Positions 985-34,367 of a DNA stretch of 35,224 nucleotides are shown piece by piece (position 1 is the stretch's first letter; the number at the start of each line of letters is the position of its first letter). A program made the position numbers and the translations under genes. The DNA is from Deltaproteobacteria bacterium YD0425bin50 (GTDB lineage: Bacteria > Desulfobacterota > Desulfobacteria > Desulfobacterales > YD0425bin50), in NCBI GenBank assembly GCA_002753105.1, contig PDZT01000012.1, positions 1-35,224 of the forward strand, in the 5' to 3' direction. Below the pieces are notes generated by a model. The model had not been told where the DNA came from. It did no database searches and saw only the letters and a program-made list of their open reading frames with translations.

Positions 985-1107
985 GTGTTTTATTAAGGTT
1001 ATTCTCTTTTGTGAGTATTTCTGCCACAAATCCATTTCGGATTCCTATATAATACGCATGTCGGATTATGCAATACTTTTCACCAAAACGAATAATCAAT
1101 ACCTATA

Positions 1108-1208
1108 AGATTTTCAGATAAATAATTTCACGGCGTTATCAGTCGGAGATATACTAAAATGTATTATCTCCTCTATCTAGCCTTGTGCAATTAATTATCT
1201 GAAAATCT
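1108..1208. repeat. 101-bp inverted-repeat element with central hairpin
   Basis: The element is bounded by the inverted 14-mer AGATTTTCAGATAA (1108-1121) and its complement (1195-1208). The arms extend to 20 bases with one mismatch. Between them lies a hairpin around GGAGATATAC / GTATTATCTCC (about 1145-1171). The same terminal word recurs as the flank of the palindromes near 6.5 and 20.8 kb. It sits between the divergent lipoprotein and U32 genes. The remainder of 985-1366 is AT-rich; I see no further gene or confident promoter in it. Confidence 0.7.
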
Positions 1209-1366
1209 ATATAGAGCATTTCAAAAAGATATATATGCCGAAAATTTTGATTGATTCATTTTTTTAGTTGATGAAAAGTCAATCTTTGATTATTCATAAC
1301 CTAAATCGTATAAATAAGTTATCATCAACGTACAAGAAAAAGAAATTTTTTAGGAACAACTATATT

Positions 1367-6458: not shown

Positions 6459-6490
6459 TCTGTTGGATACGCCTCTCGCAGGCGCACTAT

Positions 6491-6510
6491 GGACGAATAA
6501 TTATTCGTCC
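6491..6510. repeat. Perfect 20-bp palindrome at a convergent junction
   Basis: GGACGAATAA followed by its complement forms a perfect 20-bp palindrome. The flanks extend it imperfectly toward the form GTAGGGACG...CGTCCCTAC. It lies between the ends of the thioredoxin gene (+) and the polyketide synthase gene (-), and the stop codon of the latter is the right-centre TTA (6501-6503). It may act as a bidirectional terminator, but there is no clear T-tract. The adjoining 6511-6557 matches the flank of the palindrome near 20.86 kb. Confidence 0.8.
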
Positions 6511-9434
6511 CTACAATCTCGTTCACCTTTGCACTTATTTATCTGAATATCTGTAGTTATCAGTGCTAATTGTTGAGAAAAAAGTTGAGACATGGCTTGA
6601 ATTTGGTCACGCATACTATTTTCTAAAGCCGAATCGGTCATTGGCTCTGATGTCGCCATTTTTGAATTTTCATAAGACGGCTCAAGCTTATCTTGTTTGA
6701 TGCTAACAGACTCAATACTCAATACAACCGGGTTTATTTCCCTGACAGGACTTTTCCAATATCGTTGACGCTGAAAAGGGTAATTGGGCAATAGTATTTT
6801 TTTCCCAAAATCACTGTTATAAACGCCAGACCAATTGATTTTAACGCCATAACCATAGAGTTGAGCAAGTGAGTGCATCATCCTGCGATAATCATCTTCA
6901 CCTCTAATCAAGGACGGCAGCCAAATTCCTTTTCCGTCAAGACATTGTTTTCCCAAACCGGTTAACACTGCATGAGGCCCTATTTCTAAAAAGAGGTCAT
7001 ATCCCTGGCTTTCCACTGTTTTTACACCATCATAAAACCTCACAGTCTGGCGAAGATGCTGACACCAATAGTCTGGCTTGGTTATTTCCGAATGACAAAC
7101 TTGCTTTCCTGTACAATTTGAAATCAACGGCAAAACAGGTTCTGACAGGCGAATCCCAGAAATAACATGATGGAATTTATCCAGAATAGGTTCTGTTAAA
7201 TACGAATGAAACGCATGAGAAACCTGTAATAGTGTATGACGTATCTCTTTTTTTGAAAGATGATGTAAAACATCCACGATGTCTGCTTCTTTACCAGAAA
7301 TGACAACATTTTTAGGGGAATTAACAGCAGCCAACGCAATCTTTTTATTGTCGATAAATTCACGAATTTTTTCATGCGATTCAAAAATTGCGGCCATAGT
7401 TCCGCCGTTTGGAAGCGACTGCAGAACTTTCCCTCTCATTGCTGAAAGCATCAGTCCATCTTCAAGAGAAAATACGCCGGAAACACAAGCTGCAACATAT
7501 TCACCAATACTATGTCCAATAACTGCTGACGGTTTTACTCCCCAACTTCGCCAGAGTTCAGCAAGTGAATATTCAACTGCAAATAAAAGCGGTTGCGTAT
7601 GCGCTGTTTGATTGACAATATCTGCGTTCGATTCACTACCATAAAGCAGATGTAAAAGCGAAATGCCGTGCTTTTTTAATATCTCATCGCAGTGATCCAT
7701 CGTTTTTTTAAACACTGGCTCAGTATCGTACAGTTTTTTTGCCATGCCCGGATATTGAGCACCTTGTCCAGTGAATAAAAATACAATTCCTCTGTGATTC
7801 TGAGTGTTGATCTGAAACGCTTCTGATAATTTCTGGATCACTTCTTTTTTGGTTTTACCTATCACTGCACGTCTGCATTTGAAATGCGCTCTGCCTACAG
7901 ATGCAGTATAGCAAATGTCTTTCAACTCTGTATTCGAAGAATTGGATAAGTAGTTCCGGTAACGATCACTAAGAAGTCTCAACGCCTTTTCATTTTTGGC
8001 TGACAAGGGTAACAGATACAAATCTGATGTTATGTCACATGCTGTTTTTAATTCCGGCGTTTCCTGAATAATTACATGAGCATTGGTGCCGCTGAAACCA
8101 AAGGAACTAATACCAGCAATACGCTTTTTTTCTGATTTTCTCCAGGGTGTTAATTGGCTACAAACTGTTATGGGCAGTTCATGCCAAGGAATATAATGAC
8201 TTGGGGTTTGAAAATGAAGAGTTGGGGGAATATGTTCATGTTGTAGTGCTAAAATCACTTTAATAATACTGGCAATTCCTGCGGCACCCTCCAAATGACC
8301 AATATTGGTTTTGACAGATCCGATCACTACTTTTGGTTTGGTTCTTTGACTGAAAACCATTCCCAAAGCGCGGGCTTCAATTGGGTCTCCCAATCGGGTG
8401 CCAGTGCCATGAGCTTCGATATAATCTATATCATCTGGCGAACATTTGGCATGTTCCAATGCCTTTAAAATCACCTCTTTTTGAGAAAGCGCATTGGGTG
8501 CAGTCAAACCACTGCTTTCGCCATCCTGATTAACAGCGATTCCTTTGATCACAGCGAAAATTGGGTCATTATCCCGTATAGCATCTGAGAGTCTTTTTAA
8601 AACAATAAGCCCACACCCTTCACCTTTGGAATACCCGGATGCGTTATCATCAAAAGTTCTGCATCGTCCATCTTGAGACAACGCTTTTAGTTTTGAAAAG
8701 GCAATATACGGCTCAGGCGATAAAATCATGCTGACTCCACCTGCAATAGCCATATCGGATTCCTGAGTGTGCAGACTTTGAATGGCAAGGTGCAGGGATA
8801 CAAGTGATGATGAACAGGCTGTATCTACCATCAAACTTGGACCATGAAAATCATAAAAATAGGATAACCGTCCTGTTGCTGTACTAAATGCAATTCCAGT
8901 AGCACAATACTCATCTATTTTTTCTGGTTGACCCGAATTGAGATGTGCCTGAGCATAATCGCTGCTGCACATTCCTATAAATACACCGGTTTTACTTCCT
9001 TTTAATCGCTCTGCATCTATTCCTGCGGATTCTAATGCTTCCCAACTGACTTCCATTAATAGACGTTGTTGAGGGTCTAATGACTCTGCTTCAGCCCGCG
9101 AAATTCCAAAAAAATCAGCATCAAAAAAGTCCACCTGATCTAAAAATCCGCCGAATTTTGTGTATGTCTTTCCGCGCTTTTCCGGATCAGGATCATAGTA
9201 TGGGTCACTATCCCAGCGATCTTTTGGAATTTCACGAATCGTATCCATCCCATTCTTTAAAATATTCCAAAATGCTTCAGGGCTATTTGCACCTCCGGGA
9301 AAACGACACCCCATTCCAATAATTGCAATAGGTTCTTTTTGCTTTAATGAATTTATTTCTGCTAACAGTTCTTTAATTTTGTCCGAAGCTTTTTTGAGGG
9401 TCTGAATATATTTTTGTTCTGTGATTTTATCCAT
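6501..9434 (-). CDS. Type I polyketide synthase, KS-AT only
   Basis: The 977-residue protein has an N-terminal helical, docking-like segment (residues 1-33), a ketosynthase (about 34-460), a KS-AT linker and an acyltransferase (about 550-830), a post-AT linker ending LLPNYPFQRQRYW (881-893), then about 80 residues without a domain. KS catalytic residues are Cys207 (DTACSSS), His342 (EAHGTGT) and His380 (TNIGHLEG). The AT nucleophile is Ser642 in GHSIGE, and HAFH at 740-743 predicts malonyl-CoA use. No ketoreductase, dehydratase, acyl carrier or thioesterase domain is present here or nearby, so it must work with a carrier protein in trans or is a truncated module. The last 17 codons and the stop lie in a dispersed repeat, suggesting truncation. 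It is last in the leftward gene run, 30 bases after an AAA protein gene. The product is unknown. Confidence 0.95.
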   Translation of the reverse strand: MDKITEQKYIQTLKKASDKIKELLAEINSLKQKEPIAIIGMGCRFPGGANSPEAFWNILKNGMDTIREIPKDRWDSDPYYDPDPEKRGKTYTKFGGFLDQVDFFDADFFGISRAEAESLDPQQRLLMEVSWEALESAGIDAERLKGSKTGVFIGMCSSDYAQAHLNSGQPEKIDEYCATGIAFSTATGRLSYFYDFHGPSLMVDTACSSSLVSLHLAIQSLHTQESDMAIAGGVSMILSPEPYIAFSKLKALSQDGRCRTFDDNASGYSKGEGCGLIVLKRLSDAIRDNDPIFAVIKGIAVNQDGESSGLTAPNALSQKEVILKALEHAKCSPDDIDYIEAHGTGTRLGDPIEARALGMVFSQRTKPKVVIGSVKTNIGHLEGAAGIASIIKVILALQHEHIPPTLHFQTPSHYIPWHELPITVCSQLTPWRKSEKKRIAGISSFGFSGTNAHVIIQETPELKTACDITSDLYLLPLSAKNEKALRLLSDRYRNYLSNSSNTELKDICYTASVGRAHFKCRRAVIGKTKKEVIQKLSEAFQINTQNHRGIVFLFTGQGAQYPGMAKKLYDTEPVFKKTMDHCDEILKKHGISLLHLLYGSESNADIVNQTAHTQPLLFAVEYSLAELWRSWGVKPSAVIGHSIGEYVAACVSGVFSLEDGLMLSAMRGKVLQSLPNGGTMAAIFESHEKIREFIDNKKIALAAVNSPKNVVISGKEADIVDVLHHLSKKEIRHTLLQVSHAFHSYLTEPILDKFHHVISGIRLSEPVLPLISNCTGKQVCHSEITKPDYWCQHLRQTVRFYDGVKTVESQGYDLFLEIGPHAVLTGLGKQCLDGKGIWLPSLIRGEDDYRRMMHSLAQLYGYGVKINWSGVYNSDFGKKILLPNYPFQRQRYWKSPVREINPVVLSIESVSIKQDKLEPSYENSKMATSEPMTDSALENSMRDQIQAMSQLFSQQLALITTDIQINKCKGERDCRDE

Positions 9435-9464
9435 GATTCAATTGGCTAAGTCTGATAGGCAATA

Positions 9465-11051
9465 TTACATACCCCATACGGTTATAATATGGTCTTTAAA
9501 TTTTTCTTGTCGGCAAAATAATTTATCGTCCCATGTTTTGGTTTTGCTTTTATCAAAAATAACCAAATGGCCTTCAGTGGTTCCGCATTTATCCATATAT
9601 TCATACGTTTGTTCCATGCCTTTTTCGATTGTTTTTTCTAATTCATGATACCTGATTTTAAGTTCAATGACCACCTTTTGAACCTGCTGCCCTTTTTTCC
9701 ATACCATTAACAAATCGGTTCTTTTTTTACCGAGTCCGTATTCCCTATCAATACGGCCGCCGGCATTAATTATTCTTTGTAAAAAAGCCTGCATAAGAAG
9801 ATGCGGGCCGGCTTCTTTATATTGAAATCGTTCTTCCCATGATTCAGAATGTTCCCTAAAGAATTCCTGAAATGCTCTAAGAAGTTTCAGGATATCTAAT
9901 AAACCGTCTTCTTTACGGATATACCATACGGTTTCCTGACTCATGGTAAGTTGAGTGCTGTAGGTTAATTCTCTTGGAATCACTTCTTGGTATAGTCGAT
10001 TGGCAATACGAATTTTTCTGTCTTTTTTAATAAGTCCTAAATCATATACATAGGAAATATCATCCTGAGGAATGGTTTCCGGCTCTTCAACGCCTAAAAT
10101 AATCGGAAGAATAACTCTTTTAACGCGCTCTTCGCTTAACTTATCAACCAATTGATCAATATGGGTTTCCCGTCGTAAAATGATTCGTTCGATCGCATTT
10201 TCAATCATTTCGCTTGTAATCACTACAGAACGGTCTTTTCCTCCCTCCATTTTAAAACAAACTTCATAAGCTAACGCATTCACTATCCAAGGCTGCCCTT
10301 CAGAGTATTCCCAGACTAAATCAATTGTTTTTTGCTCAAAAACCTGTCCTGTTTCTGCAGTATGACACATATATAAATTCTTAATTTCCTCTTTAGAAAA
10401 ATCGCCTATTCTAAGAGATTCTGCTTTAATATTAAAAGCGCTTCCACCGGTTATGATTGATTTTTCTTTACTTGAATGAATTCTATAATCGCGAATATCT
10501 CTCAGTCCGCATAAAACAATGCTTTGCGGAAACAATTGAGAGCTGCGTTTATCATATCCCCCTCTAAGCTGCCTAAGCACAGAAATTAATGTATCACCGA
10601 TTAATGAATCGATTTCGTCTATTAACAGAACGATGGGTTTCGTATTTTGAGCGCACCACCTGCTGATTGACGCATTTAAGGCTATATCCTCGCCTTTTTG
10701 GGTTAATATTTCCTGACACATATTTTCCAAAGCATCATCATGTAAAAACATTGCCGCTCTATCAGACATTTCTCCTAATATTGCCCGTATGCCTCTATAC
10801 ACATCTTCCCTTGCTCCTTGAGCGGATTCCACATTAATATAAAGGCATTTATAAGTGCCTTCCTGATTCAAATAGTCCATCAATGCCAAAAGACAAGATG
10901 TTTTTCCGGTTTGTCTTGGAGCGTGAAGTATAAAATATTTCTTTTGTTCAATTAAAGATAAAATTTCTGATAAATTAATCCTATCTAAAGGCGGTAAACA
11001 ATAATGGTCTTTGCAATTTACCGGACCTGCTGTATTAAAGAAATGCATCAT
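9465..11051 (-). CDS. AAA-like ATPase with PD-(D/E)XK nuclease domain, copy 1
   Basis: This 528-residue protein begins MMHFFNTAGPVN, as in a family common in Desulfobacterota and cyanobacteria. It has a P-loop APRQTGKTS (44-52, Ala in place of the usual first Gly), a Walker B VLLIDE (141-146), and a winged-helix-like middle region. The C-terminal part has PD-(D/E)XK residues Asp446 (KRTDLL), Glu463-Leu-Lys465 and Gln481-x2-Tyr484. ATP binding and a nuclease fold are thus predicted; the biological role is unknown. It is about 94-95% identical to the gene directly upstream in the same orientation (29 differences in 528), a tandem duplicate. The start is the second ATG after AGGTGA or the one just before it. 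Cleavage activity is inferred only from the motif. Confidence 0.88.
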   Translation of the reverse strand: MMHFFNTAGPVNCKDHYCLPPLDRINLSEILSLIEQKKYFILHAPRQTGKTSCLLALMDYLNQEGTYKCLYINVESAQGAREDVYRGIRAILGEMSDRAAMFLHDDALENMCQEILTQKGEDIALNASISRWCAQNTKPIVLLIDEIDSLIGDTLISVLRQLRGGYDKRSSQLFPQSIVLCGLRDIRDYRIHSSKEKSIITGGSAFNIKAESLRIGDFSKEEIKNLYMCHTAETGQVFEQKTIDLVWEYSEGQPWIVNALAYEVCFKMEGGKDRSVVITSEMIENAIERIILRRETHIDQLVDKLSEERVKRVILPIILGVEEPETIPQDDISYVYDLGLIKKDRKIRIANRLYQEVIPRELTYSTQLTMSQETVWYIRKEDGLLDILKLLRAFQEFFREHSESWEERFQYKEAGPHLLMQAFLQRIINAGGRIDREYGLGKKRTDLLMVWKKGQQVQKVVIELKIRYHELEKTIEKGMEQTYEYMDKCGTTEGHLVIFDKSKTKTWDDKLFCRQEKFKDHIITVWGM

Positions 11052-11096
11052 TTCACCTGTTTTTCAAATTTTTATTGGATCGTATAATAATACATA

Positions 11097-12683
11097 TTAC
11101 ATACCCCATATAGTTATCTTATGGCCTTCGTAGGTTTCTTGCCGACAAAATAGTTTATCGTCCCATGTTTTGGTTTTGCTTTTATCAAAAATAACCAAAT
11201 GCCCTTCGGTGGTTCCGCATTTATCCATATATTCATACGTTTGTTCCATGCCTTTTTCGATTGTTTTTTCTAATTCATGATACCTGATTTTAAGCTCGAT
11301 GACCACTTTTTGAACCTGCTGCCCTTTTTTCCATACCATTAACAAATCGGTTCTTTTTTTACCTAGTCCGTATTCCCTATCAATACGGCCGCCGGCATTG
11401 ATTATTCTTTGTAAAAAAGCCTGCATAAGAAGATGCGGGCCGGCTTCTTTATATTGAAATCGTTCTTCCCATGATTCAGAATGTTCCCTAAAGAATTCCT
11501 GAAATGCTCTAAGAAGTTTCGGGATATCTAATAAACCGTCTTCTTTACGGATATACCATACGGTTTCCTGACTCATGGTAAGTTGAGTGCTGTAGGTTAA
11601 TTCTCTTGGAATCACTTCTTGGTATAGTCGATTGGCAATACGAATTTTTCTGTCTTTTTTAATAAGTCCTAAATCATATACATAGGAAATATCATCCTGA
11701 GGAATGGTTTCCGGCTCTTCAACGCCTAAAATAATCGGAAGAATAACTCTTTTAACGCGCTCTTCGCTTAACTTATCAACCAATTGATCAATATGAGTTT
11801 CCCGTCGTAAAATAATTCGTTCGATCGCGTTCTCAATCATTTCTCCCGTAATCACTACAGACCGGTCTTTTCCTCCCTCCATTTCAAAACAAACTTCATA
11901 AGCAAATGCATTCACTATCCAAGGCTGACCTTCAGAGTATTCCCAGACTAAATCAATTGCTTTCCGATCAAAAACCTGTCCTGTTTCTGCAGTATGACAC
12001 ATATATAAACGCTCAATTTCTTCTTTAGAAAAATCGCCTATTTTCAAGGACTTTGCTTTAATATTAAAAGCACTTCCACCGGTTATGATTGATTTTTCTT
12101 TACCTGAATGAATTCTATAATCGCGAATATCTCTCAGGCCGCATAAAACAATGCTTTGCGGAAACAATTGAGAACTGCGTTTATCATACCCCCCTCTAAG
12201 CTGCCTAAGCACAGAAATTAATGTATCACCGATTAATGAATCGATTTCATCTATTAACAGAACGATGGGTTTCGTATTTTGAGAGCACCACCTGCTGATT
12301 GACGCATTTAAGGCTATATCCTCGCCTTTTTGGGTTAATATTTCCTGACACATATTTTCCAAAGCATCATCATGTAAAAACATTGCTGCTCTATCAGACA
12401 TTTCTCCTAATATTGCCCGTATGCCTCTATACACATCTTCCCTTGCTCCTTGAGCGGATTCCACATTAATATAAAGGCATTTATAAGTGCCTTCCTGATT
12501 CAAATATTCCATCAGCGCTAAAAGAGACGATGTTTTTCCGGTTTGTCTTGGAGCGTGAAGTATAAAATATTTTTCTTGTTCAATTAGATGTAAAATCTCA
12601 GGTAAGTTAATTCGATTTAATGGTGATAGACAATAATGTTTATTACAATTTACCGGACCTGCTGTATTAAAAAAACGCATCAT
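11097..12683 (-). CDS. AAA-like ATPase with PD-(D/E)XK nuclease domain, copy 2
   Basis: This is the tandem paralogue of the next gene downstream, with the same Walker A (APRQTGKTSS), Walker B (VLLIDEIDSL) and nuclease motifs (RTDLL, ELK, QTYEY). The frame can be extended upstream to a TTG at 12713, but the paralogue and the sequence AGGTGAAATGATG place the start at 12683 or 12680. The gene begins 32 bases after the end of the secretin gene, so it may be transcribed with the pilus operon. Differences between the copies cluster in residues 1-60, 194-280 and the last 12 residues. Residues 281-516 differ at a single position, which suggests conversion between copies. Function is unknown. Confidence 0.88.
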   Translation of the reverse strand: MMRFFNTAGPVNCNKHYCLSPLNRINLPEILHLIEQEKYFILHAPRQTGKTSSLLALMEYLNQEGTYKCLYINVESAQGAREDVYRGIRAILGEMSDRAAMFLHDDALENMCQEILTQKGEDIALNASISRWCSQNTKPIVLLIDEIDSLIGDTLISVLRQLRGGYDKRSSQLFPQSIVLCGLRDIRDYRIHSGKEKSIITGGSAFNIKAKSLKIGDFSKEEIERLYMCHTAETGQVFDRKAIDLVWEYSEGQPWIVNAFAYEVCFEMEGGKDRSVVITGEMIENAIERIILRRETHIDQLVDKLSEERVKRVILPIILGVEEPETIPQDDISYVYDLGLIKKDRKIRIANRLYQEVIPRELTYSTQLTMSQETVWYIRKEDGLLDIPKLLRAFQEFFREHSESWEERFQYKEAGPHLLMQAFLQRIINAGGRIDREYGLGKKRTDLLMVWKKGQQVQKVVIELKIRYHELEKTIEKGMEQTYEYMDKCGTTEGHLVIFDKSKTKTWDDKLFCRQETYEGHKITIWGM

Positions 12684-12715
12684 TTCACCTATTATTTTAT
12701 TTGTATATCTCAACG

Positions 12716-19735: not shown

Positions 19736-20818
19736 ATGCCGGGAAATAGTTTCGGTCAGAATTTTAGAATTACAACGTGTGGTGAATCTCATGGTAAAGC
19801 AATTAGCGTTATCATTGATGGTTGCCCTCCTCAACTTCCATTAAATGAATCCATGATTCAAGTCATGATGGACAGACGTAAACCCGGTAGTTCTGCGGCT
19901 AGTACCAAGAGAAAAGAGCCGGACCATGTCAGTATCATGTCAGGAGTATTTGAAGGAAAAACTACTGGAACCCCTATTCTCATCATGATCGAAAACAAGG
20001 ATGCAGATCCCCGTGCATACAGTAAAAATGTTCAATTGTTTCGTCCTGGACATGGTGATATTACTTATACTGCCAAATACGGGATTCGGGATTGGCGTGG
20101 TGGTGGAAGGGCTTCTGCCAGAGAAACAGCAGCTCGTGTCGCAGCAGGAGCTGTGGCAATGATTTTATTAAATCAATATGATATCCACATCTATGCCTAC
20201 ACCCTATGTTTGGGAGGTGTTGTTGCTACACAGCGCGATTTTTCTGTTATTCATCAAAACCCTTATGGATCTCCAGACCTTGAAGCTGCTCTTTTAATGG
20301 AAAAAAGGGTTGCAGAAGTCAAAGCAAAGGGGGATTCATTAGGCGGTATTGTAGAAATCGTTGCACAAGGGGTTCCAATGGGTTTGGGAGAACCTGTGTT
20401 TGACAAACTTGATGCAGATTTAGCCAAGGCATTAATGAGTGTTGGTGCAGTAAAAGGTGTAGAGATTGGAGCTGGTTTTGCCTGTGCTCAACTGCTTGGG
20501 TCTGAAAATAATGACCCAATCATGTCCAATGGTTTTCAACAAAACAATGCTGGCGGTATTCTCGCAGGGATTTCAAATGGTGACGATATTGTTGTACGCG
20601 TTGCGGTAAAGCCTATTCCTTCAATTATCATTGAGCAAGACACAATCGATCATCAAAAACAGCCACATCGTATTTCAACTCAAGGCAGACATGATATTTC
20701 AGCTATTCCCCGGATTAACGTAGTTCTTGAAGCCATGACTGCTATCGTCATTGCAGACCATTTGCTGCGTCAACAAACCTTGCAATTAAATAAGCCACCT
20801 TGTTATTTTGAGCTATAG
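19736..20818 (+). CDS. aroC: Chorismate synthase
   Basis: The 360-residue enzyme catalyses the last shikimate-pathway step, conversion of 5-enolpyruvylshikimate-3-phosphate to chorismate, using reduced FMN. Signatures are GESHGKAISVIIDGCP (16-31, with the conserved His19), RPGHGDITYTAKYGIRDWRG (103-122, His106) and GGRASARETAARVAAGA (123-139). Length is normal for bacterial AroC. The AGGG ribosome binding site lies just beyond the right end of a MITE-like repeat, so the element separates aroC from the PaaK-ACT pair and may carry or replace its promoter. No other shikimate genes are in the window. Confidence 0.97.
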   Translation: MPGNSFGQNFRITTCGESHGKAISVIIDGCPPQLPLNESMIQVMMDRRKPGSSAASTKRKEPDHVSIMSGVFEGKTTGTPILIMIENKDADPRAYSKNVQLFRPGHGDITYTAKYGIRDWRGGGRASARETAARVAAGAVAMILLNQYDIHIYAYTLCLGGVVATQRDFSVIHQNPYGSPDLEAALLMEKRVAEVKAKGDSLGGIVEIVAQGVPMGLGEPVFDKLDADLAKALMSVGAVKGVEIGAGFACAQLLGSENNDPIMSNGFQQNNAGGILAGISNGDDIVVRVAVKPIPSIIIEQDTIDHQKQPHRISTQGRHDISAIPRINVVLEAMTAIVIADHLLRQQTLQLNKPPCYFEL

Positions 20819-20884
20819 ACAGATTTTCAGATAACTAATTGCAAAGATGAACGATTGTAGGGGCGAGGCATGCCTCGCCCCTAC
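20819..20884. repeat. Dispersed repeat: conserved flank plus perfect 28-bp palindrome
   Basis: A 28-bp perfect palindrome (20857-20884) has the half GTAGGGGCGAGGCA and lies between the convergent ends of aroC and the TPR membrane protein gene. Its left flank (20819-20856), starting ACAGATTTTCAGATAACTAA, is nearly the same as the flank of the palindrome at 6491-6510 read on the other strand. The hairpin could end transcription from both sides, but there is no strong T-tract. Confidence 0.85.
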
Positions 20885-20970
20885 GGGAATTTACCACTTC
20901 TCATTTTGCTCTCAATTGAGATTCTCTAATATGAGGTGCTCTTCTCTCTCGGAATGATGAATTATTCTAC

Positions 20971-24423: not shown

Positions 24424-24756
24424 CTTACCTCAGAAGATTTAACAATATAGATTTTCGATTTTCGATTTATAATCCGTGCTATCTGTGTAATCTTTTTAAT
24501 CTGCGTATGATAGATTTCTAAGTCGGCATTGATTCTCGTTTCGGCCATTAAGTATTTTGTGGCGTTGATCGTTCCCACGCTCCAGCGTGGGAACGTAGCC
24601 ATGGACGCTCCATCGTCCAATTTTGTCCAGAACCTATACGCTTTTTACGTCAATTCGGGACGCTGGAGCGTCCCAATCTGCGTTCCCACGCTGGAGCGTG
24701 GGAACGATCGAAATCTGTGTAATCTTTTTAATCTGCGGATGATAGATTTCTAAGTC
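24424..24756. repeat. Composite repeat cluster between direct repeats
   Basis: A 44-bp direct repeat with one mismatch occurs at 24481-24524 and 24713-24756; the second copy overlaps the 3' end of the histidine kinase gene. Between them is GGCATTGATTCTCGTTTCGG (24525-24544), also found at about 34433-34452 on the other strand, followed by four hairpins in mirrored order: 24571-24594, 24603-24618 (imperfect), 24657-24674 and 24681-24706. Left of the first copy is the 7-bp tandem GATTTTC tract. There is no coding sequence here beyond the kinase end; short open frames are repeat translations. Confidence 0.85.
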
Positions 24757-34150: not shown

Positions 34151-34367
34151 CCCCATATGCATCAAGCTAAGGGAATATGCTTAAATGCTGGTTGCAGTGC
34201 TCGTTCCCACGCTTTGCGTGGGAATGCAGATAGGACGCTTCGCGTCCACAACAGAAAGTATCCGTGCTTATTATTCCAATCTGGACGCAAAGCGTCCCGA
34301 ATGCGTTCCCACGCAAAGCGTGGGAACGAGCATTTAAGCATATCTCCTTAGCTTGATGCATATGGGG
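34151..34367. repeat. 217-bp MITE-like element with mirrored hairpins
   Basis: Perfect 22-bp inverted ends (34151-34172 and 34346-34367) contain the same CATATGCATCAAGCTAAG as the element at 19.5 kb. Inside are four hairpins in mirrored order: TTCCCACGC-TTT-GCGTGGGAA (34204-34224), GGACGC-TTC-GCGTCC (34233-34247), GGACGC-AAA-GCGTCC (34283-34297) and a CACGC-AAA-GCGTG hairpin (34304-34328). ACACA on both sides (34146-34150, 34368-34372) may be a target-site duplication, though the context is low in complexity. Confidence 0.85.

Follow-up and report, generated by a model that had tools for sequence, protein, structure and literature searches.

The 35,224-nucleotide stretch of DNA analysed here (the window) carries a KS-AT polyketide synthase gene whose last codons and stop lie inside a dispersed repeat, which raises the question of whether the repeat cut short a longer modular synthase or only supplied a new end to a gene that already finished there. 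Insertion and truncation had been the simplest reading in the original prediction, with recruitment of the repeat as a new gene end as its alternative. Our data favour a version of the latter: very probably, this is a natively stand-alone KS-AT subunit, and a MITE-like element inserted at or near its native stop now provides the tail and the stop codon. The features at the gene end are as follows.

6501-9434, minus strand: KS-AT polyketide synthase subunit of 977 aa, intact by Pfam domains and active-site motifs
6558-6632, minus strand: putative native C-terminal helix, residues 935-959, SALENSMRDQIQAMSQLFSQQLALI, from alignment with four stand-alone KS-ATs and a profile match at E = 1.1e-14
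6491-6555, minus strand: left arm and palindrome of a TA-flanked MITE-like repeat beginning TACAG, from genome matches and alignment to copies
6491-6510, no strand: perfect 20-bp palindrome GGACGAATAATTATTCGTCC, from sequence and RNA fold, with the TAA stop (6501-6503, minus strand) at its centre
6468-6486, no strand: second short hairpin, unrelated to the repeat, located in the gap before the convergent thioredoxin gene and outside the stretch matched by other copies

Pfam assigns to the 977-aa protein the domains ketoacyl-synt and Ketoacyl-synt_C, the CurL-like_PKS_C linker and Acyl_transf_1 and no other domain, in agreement with the earlier observation that nothing follows AT. All active-site motifs are kept (DTACSSS at 204, HGTGT at 342, GHLEGA at 379, GHSIGE at 640 and HAFHS at 740), and the product is thus a KS and an AT alone with their catalytic motifs. 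Its neighbours are type IV pilus/secretin (pilus-assembly) genes, AAA genes and the thioredoxin gene that converges on it. At 9465-12713, two AAA ATPase genes in tandem have 3' ends (9462-9761 and 11094-11393) that are 94% identical in DNA over 300 bases.

The first base of the repeat is the T in codon 960, at position 6555, and the repeat contributes the 17 codons of residues 961-977 (TDIQINKCKGERDCRDE) together with the stop (6501-6554), as had been proposed and as is borne out by ORF 6501-9434 and by copies elsewhere in the genome. A search of the organism's own genome (4.97 Mb, 75% complete) returned at least 41 matches to the gene-end repeat, the best other copies having E values of 6e-18, 2e-15 and 7e-14 at 85-90% identity, which places the match far above chance and establishes the identity of the repeat. 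Identity to the left-arm consensus is 93.5%. The previously noted resemblance of about 90% over some 45 bases to the flank of a 28-bp palindrome at 20857-20884 also holds, with 40 of 45 aligned arm bases identical plus a 2-base gap relative to the copy at 20819-20884; identity is 77.6% over 67 bases when the palindromes, which differ between the two copies, are included. Stops occur in the repeat consensus after 17, 21 and 43 bases in the three frames. The KS-AT gene uses the third frame, in which a 2-bp insertion (GAACGAGATTGTAG vs GAACGATTGTAG) bypasses a TAG at about codon 14, and translation ends at the TAA at base 55 of the element, in the centre of the palindrome. No right terminal repeat was found within 160 bases, nor a right half beyond this palindrome.

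Aligned copies define a full-length form of 126-128 bp, consisting of TACAGATTTTCAGATAAATAATTGCAAAGATGAACGATTGTAGGGG, a subfamily-variable palindrome and a right half that finishes in ...AATATCTGAAAATCTATA. Its terminal inverted repeats are TACAGATTTTCAGAT...ATCTGAAAATCTATA, the right one being recognised in 12 of 25 copies; of the two, the gene-end copy shows only the left. On the left, 24 of the 25 copies carry a TA, and intact right ends finish in TA. Short, non-coding and multi-copy, with terminal inverted repeats and a TA at the insertion point, the family is by its anatomy a non-autonomous MITE of the TA-target (IS630/Tc1-mariner) type. The same left arm is joined to different palindromic cores across subfamilies, at times to two successive palindromes (L093 on contig C183 and L095 on contig C308), and TATAGATTTTCAGAT is the end sequence of the element family. 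Two further elements of this kind lie in the window.

20819-20921, plus strand: second copy of the family, with left arm, 28-bp palindrome and part of the right half, 98% identical to consensus positions 2-104
1104-1213, plus strand: full copy of a sister MITE family of ~109 bp with related terminal inverted repeats

The second copy adjoins the TAG stop (20816-20818) of an apparently full-length chorismate synthase gene (19736-20818). About 40 scored copies of the sister family are present in the genome, and related ends are dispersed across several other families of the order. A separate repeat family forms nested inverted repeats of CGTTCCCACGCT palindromes at 24567-24709 and 34151-34367. 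We know of no description of the gene-end repeat family, from a non-exhaustive search. In the genome, 75% complete, the search for a source transposase turned up two DDE_3 genes; no match to the ends of the repeat was recognised, and the one with clear ends carries inverted repeats unlike those of the family. A 1.4-kb end pair in another genome (L177 in G049) was discarded as an autonomous element, as it contains no transposase-sized ORF.

Whether anything was lost from the protein was judged against relatives, the closest of which are related at the order level. Stand-alone KS-ATs without the repeat occur in four genomes from four genera and three families of the same order, at about 930-1040 aa.

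G006: stand-alone KS-AT of 1027 aa, ending 10 residues past the helix motif
G039: stand-alone KS-AT of about 1036 aa, ending 4 residues past the helix motif
G143: stand-alone KS-AT in a 1039-aa frame, ending 2 residues past the helix motif
G076: stand-alone KS-AT of 926 aa with its N-terminus off the contig, ending 10 residues past the helix motif DALERIMSEQIRIMSQLLSQQLEVL

The contig-edge proteins L145 and L151 were excluded from this count, and a 1080-aa KS-AT-only frame in G165 (L168), which has no helix and an odd tail, was left out. The four share with the window protein a conserved C-terminal end that is probably helical, with the consensus ALERIMSEQIRxMSxLMSQQLxVL. The window protein keeps the motif entire, with QIxxMSxLMxQQLxxL at the end of the chain, and the repeat begins directly after it. 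In a profile search of 390 genomes of the order, the five best matches were these four proteins and the window protein, and among the five best and seven further matches read (weaker ones being only partly inspected) the helix followed an AT solely at the C-terminus of stand-alone proteins. Because the helix is intact in the window protein and terminal in four repeat-free relatives, the KS-AT form is, as judged from these alignments, native: no larger protein was cut short, and what the repeat displaced was probably no more than the final few codons and the stop.

All seven further matches read are in separate subunits, close to the N-terminus; in complete frames they follow an ACP, and in all five of the partner subunits scanned Pfam finds a class-III aminotransferase downstream of the helix. 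The related motifs stand between ACP and aminotransferase, for example at the following positions.

L059, 1824-1904: related helix motif in a partner subunit
L171, 3416-3496: related helix motif in a partner subunit
L211, 4721-4801: related helix motif in a partner subunit

The stand-alone KS-ATs of the relatives are located in PKS/NRPS clusters. In G039 the gene directly after the KS-AT encodes an ACP-aminotransferase-condensation protein; PALP-family and ornithine-cyclodeaminase-family genes stand between KS-AT and partner subunit in G143, and PALP, ornithine-cyclodeaminase and sulfotransferase genes do so in G076. The PALP/ornithine-cyclodeaminase pair makes diaminopropionate in other systems. 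From the helix positions and the partner genes in these three relatives, the module reads as naturally split between AT and ACP-aminotransferase. The 35-kb contig encodes no ACP-aminotransferase partner, and a search of the genome, 75% complete, brought none to light: the best match is a generic aminotransferase at 35%, and searches for detached ACP-aminotransferase or Dap-synthesis-like genes gave distant generic matches only. Since no partner was found, we class the window gene only as a stand-alone KS-AT of the split type and not as a member of a pathway; the subunit may act by itself, rely on a partner missing from the assembly or be a relic.

In a tree of the KS+AT core, the window protein is sister, with a support of 99, to an in-chain KS-AT-DH module (L163), in which AT runs directly into DH-like sequence that the post-AT sequence of the window protein does not resemble. 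Stand-alone proteins do not group as a single clade in this tree, so that class membership of the window protein rests on the helix. G143 is similarly mixed, the core of its stand-alone protein pairing with an in-chain module from that protein's own cluster. At some depth the KS-AT core of the window protein may derive from a longer chain, and cores appear to have been exchanged while the C-terminal end was kept.

Two further genes of the same genome receive C-terminal residues and a stop from the same repeat.

L086, 742-1542, contig C374: ABC-transporter ATPase with the tail ATNFQINNCKDERL, in the same repeat frame as the KS-AT gene
L078, 3-1520, contig C448: hybrid histidine kinase with the tail ITYRFSDK, in a different repeat frame

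Comparable cases are on record. The enterobacterial repeat RU-1 ends the ECA3499 amidase gene (Delihas 2007, PMC2759123): there too a small mobile repeat sits at the 3' end beyond the conserved domain, has removed the old stop and has added a tail, although repeat sequence and host are unrelated and the RU-1 tail is about 35 residues (PMC2759123). In Coxiella, QMITE2 encodes in frame the C-terminal residues of enhC, which is functional, and QMITE1 overlaps gene ends (PMC5896051), but these MITEs are unrelated, with longer and variable direct repeats, and one Coxiella strain is known to lack the extension (PMC5896051). RUP, an IS630-type MITE of Streptococcus pneumoniae, is a multi-copy, non-autonomous inverted-repeat element of ~107 bp with a TA target and stops in its frames; an IS630 partner has been proposed for it (PMC2229807), whereas none was found for the gene-end repeat. 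Gene ends supplied by mobile repeats, and TA-target MITEs, are therefore already known, and the KS-AT gene is a further case; a short mobile repeat ending a gene is an ordinary kind of event. Reviewed split-module PKS subunits also spread one module over two proteins with short conserved ends, but those splits are mainly trans-AT (KS/KR, KS/DH and DH/KR; PMC9113145), while the present one is an AT/ACP-aminotransferase split in a cis-AT system. A literature search with limited terms gave no match for such splits.

We propose the following origin for the gene end. The KS-AT would have been natively stand-alone, its ACP-aminotransferase part being a separate protein as in the relatives, and a TA-flanked MITE-like element of ~127 bp would have inserted by transposition at a TA located at the native stop or within a few codons of it. 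The arm having stops in three frames, translation would have continued for 17 codons to the TAA at the centre of the palindrome, and the right half of the element would have been lost later or never have been present. Lying beyond the intact helix, the tail is in all likelihood a neutral appendage.

Truncation of a longer modular synthase by the repeat is highly improbable. The repeat does sit exactly at the gene end, and most KS-AT homologues of the order, with the nearest by the core tree among them, belong to chains of 1,500-3,700 aa; yet the helix is whole, the four repeat-free relatives stop within 2-10 residues of it and do not run on past this boundary, as orthologues of a truncated modular PKS would, and in the matches read from 390 genomes the helix was never met after an AT inside a chain. 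Only ~30 bases separate the repeat from the thioredoxin gene, and these contain no PKS remnant. A detached module continuing the post-AT linker, for which the original prediction suggested a search, was not found in the genome either, the best match to the partner being the generic aminotransferase at 35%. This part of the original prediction is thus not supported: repeat-free relatives end at the same boundary, the very outcome it had named as a refutation. Its alternative, a repeat recruited as a gene end, is supported by the 17 codons and stop that the repeat supplies.

Other readings concern the surroundings or the use of the new end rather than the length of the gene. A rearrangement between dispersed copies could have brought the KS-AT gene next to the genes that now flank it and deleted downstream partners, leaving the half-copy as a breakpoint scar; this is compatible with insertion at a native stop, and would fit the missing right half, the unrelated neighbours and the lack of a partner where relatives' KS-ATs lie within clusters. 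We nevertheless regard it as unlikely, as half-copies are common (13 of 25 copies have no right terminal repeat, a figure that includes a few that are cut by a contig end or partly preserved) and call for no special event, and the genome is only 75% complete. It is more doubtful that the KS-AT-end helix and the related ACP/aminotransferase helix form a matched docking pair for AT/ACP split modules, in which case the repeat tail could alter the choice of partner, or make the subunit a free-standing one. Retention of the repeat for a useful tail or hairpin, as a terminator or through altered docking, seems improbable: other copies likewise lie at gene ends, and the double hairpin between the convergent KS-AT and thioredoxin genes is stable (RNA fold, z = -3.2), but no T-run follows the hairpins in either direction, and the two other tailed genes use different frames, which suggests tolerance and not a selected peptide.

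The locus, with its probably natively bounded KS-AT and a MITE-like element at the stop, is a clean example, at the level of sequence, of a mobile repeat that rewrites the end of a gene and leaves the enzyme unbroken, and other genes in this genome show the same event. A misreading that comes easily is also set right, since the lack of later domains in a KS-AT protein can be native. The motif common to both halves of the split module gives a small, testable lead on the way in which AT and ACP-aminotransferase subunits may pair, and the split itself, with its shared motif, is perhaps less familiar to specialists.
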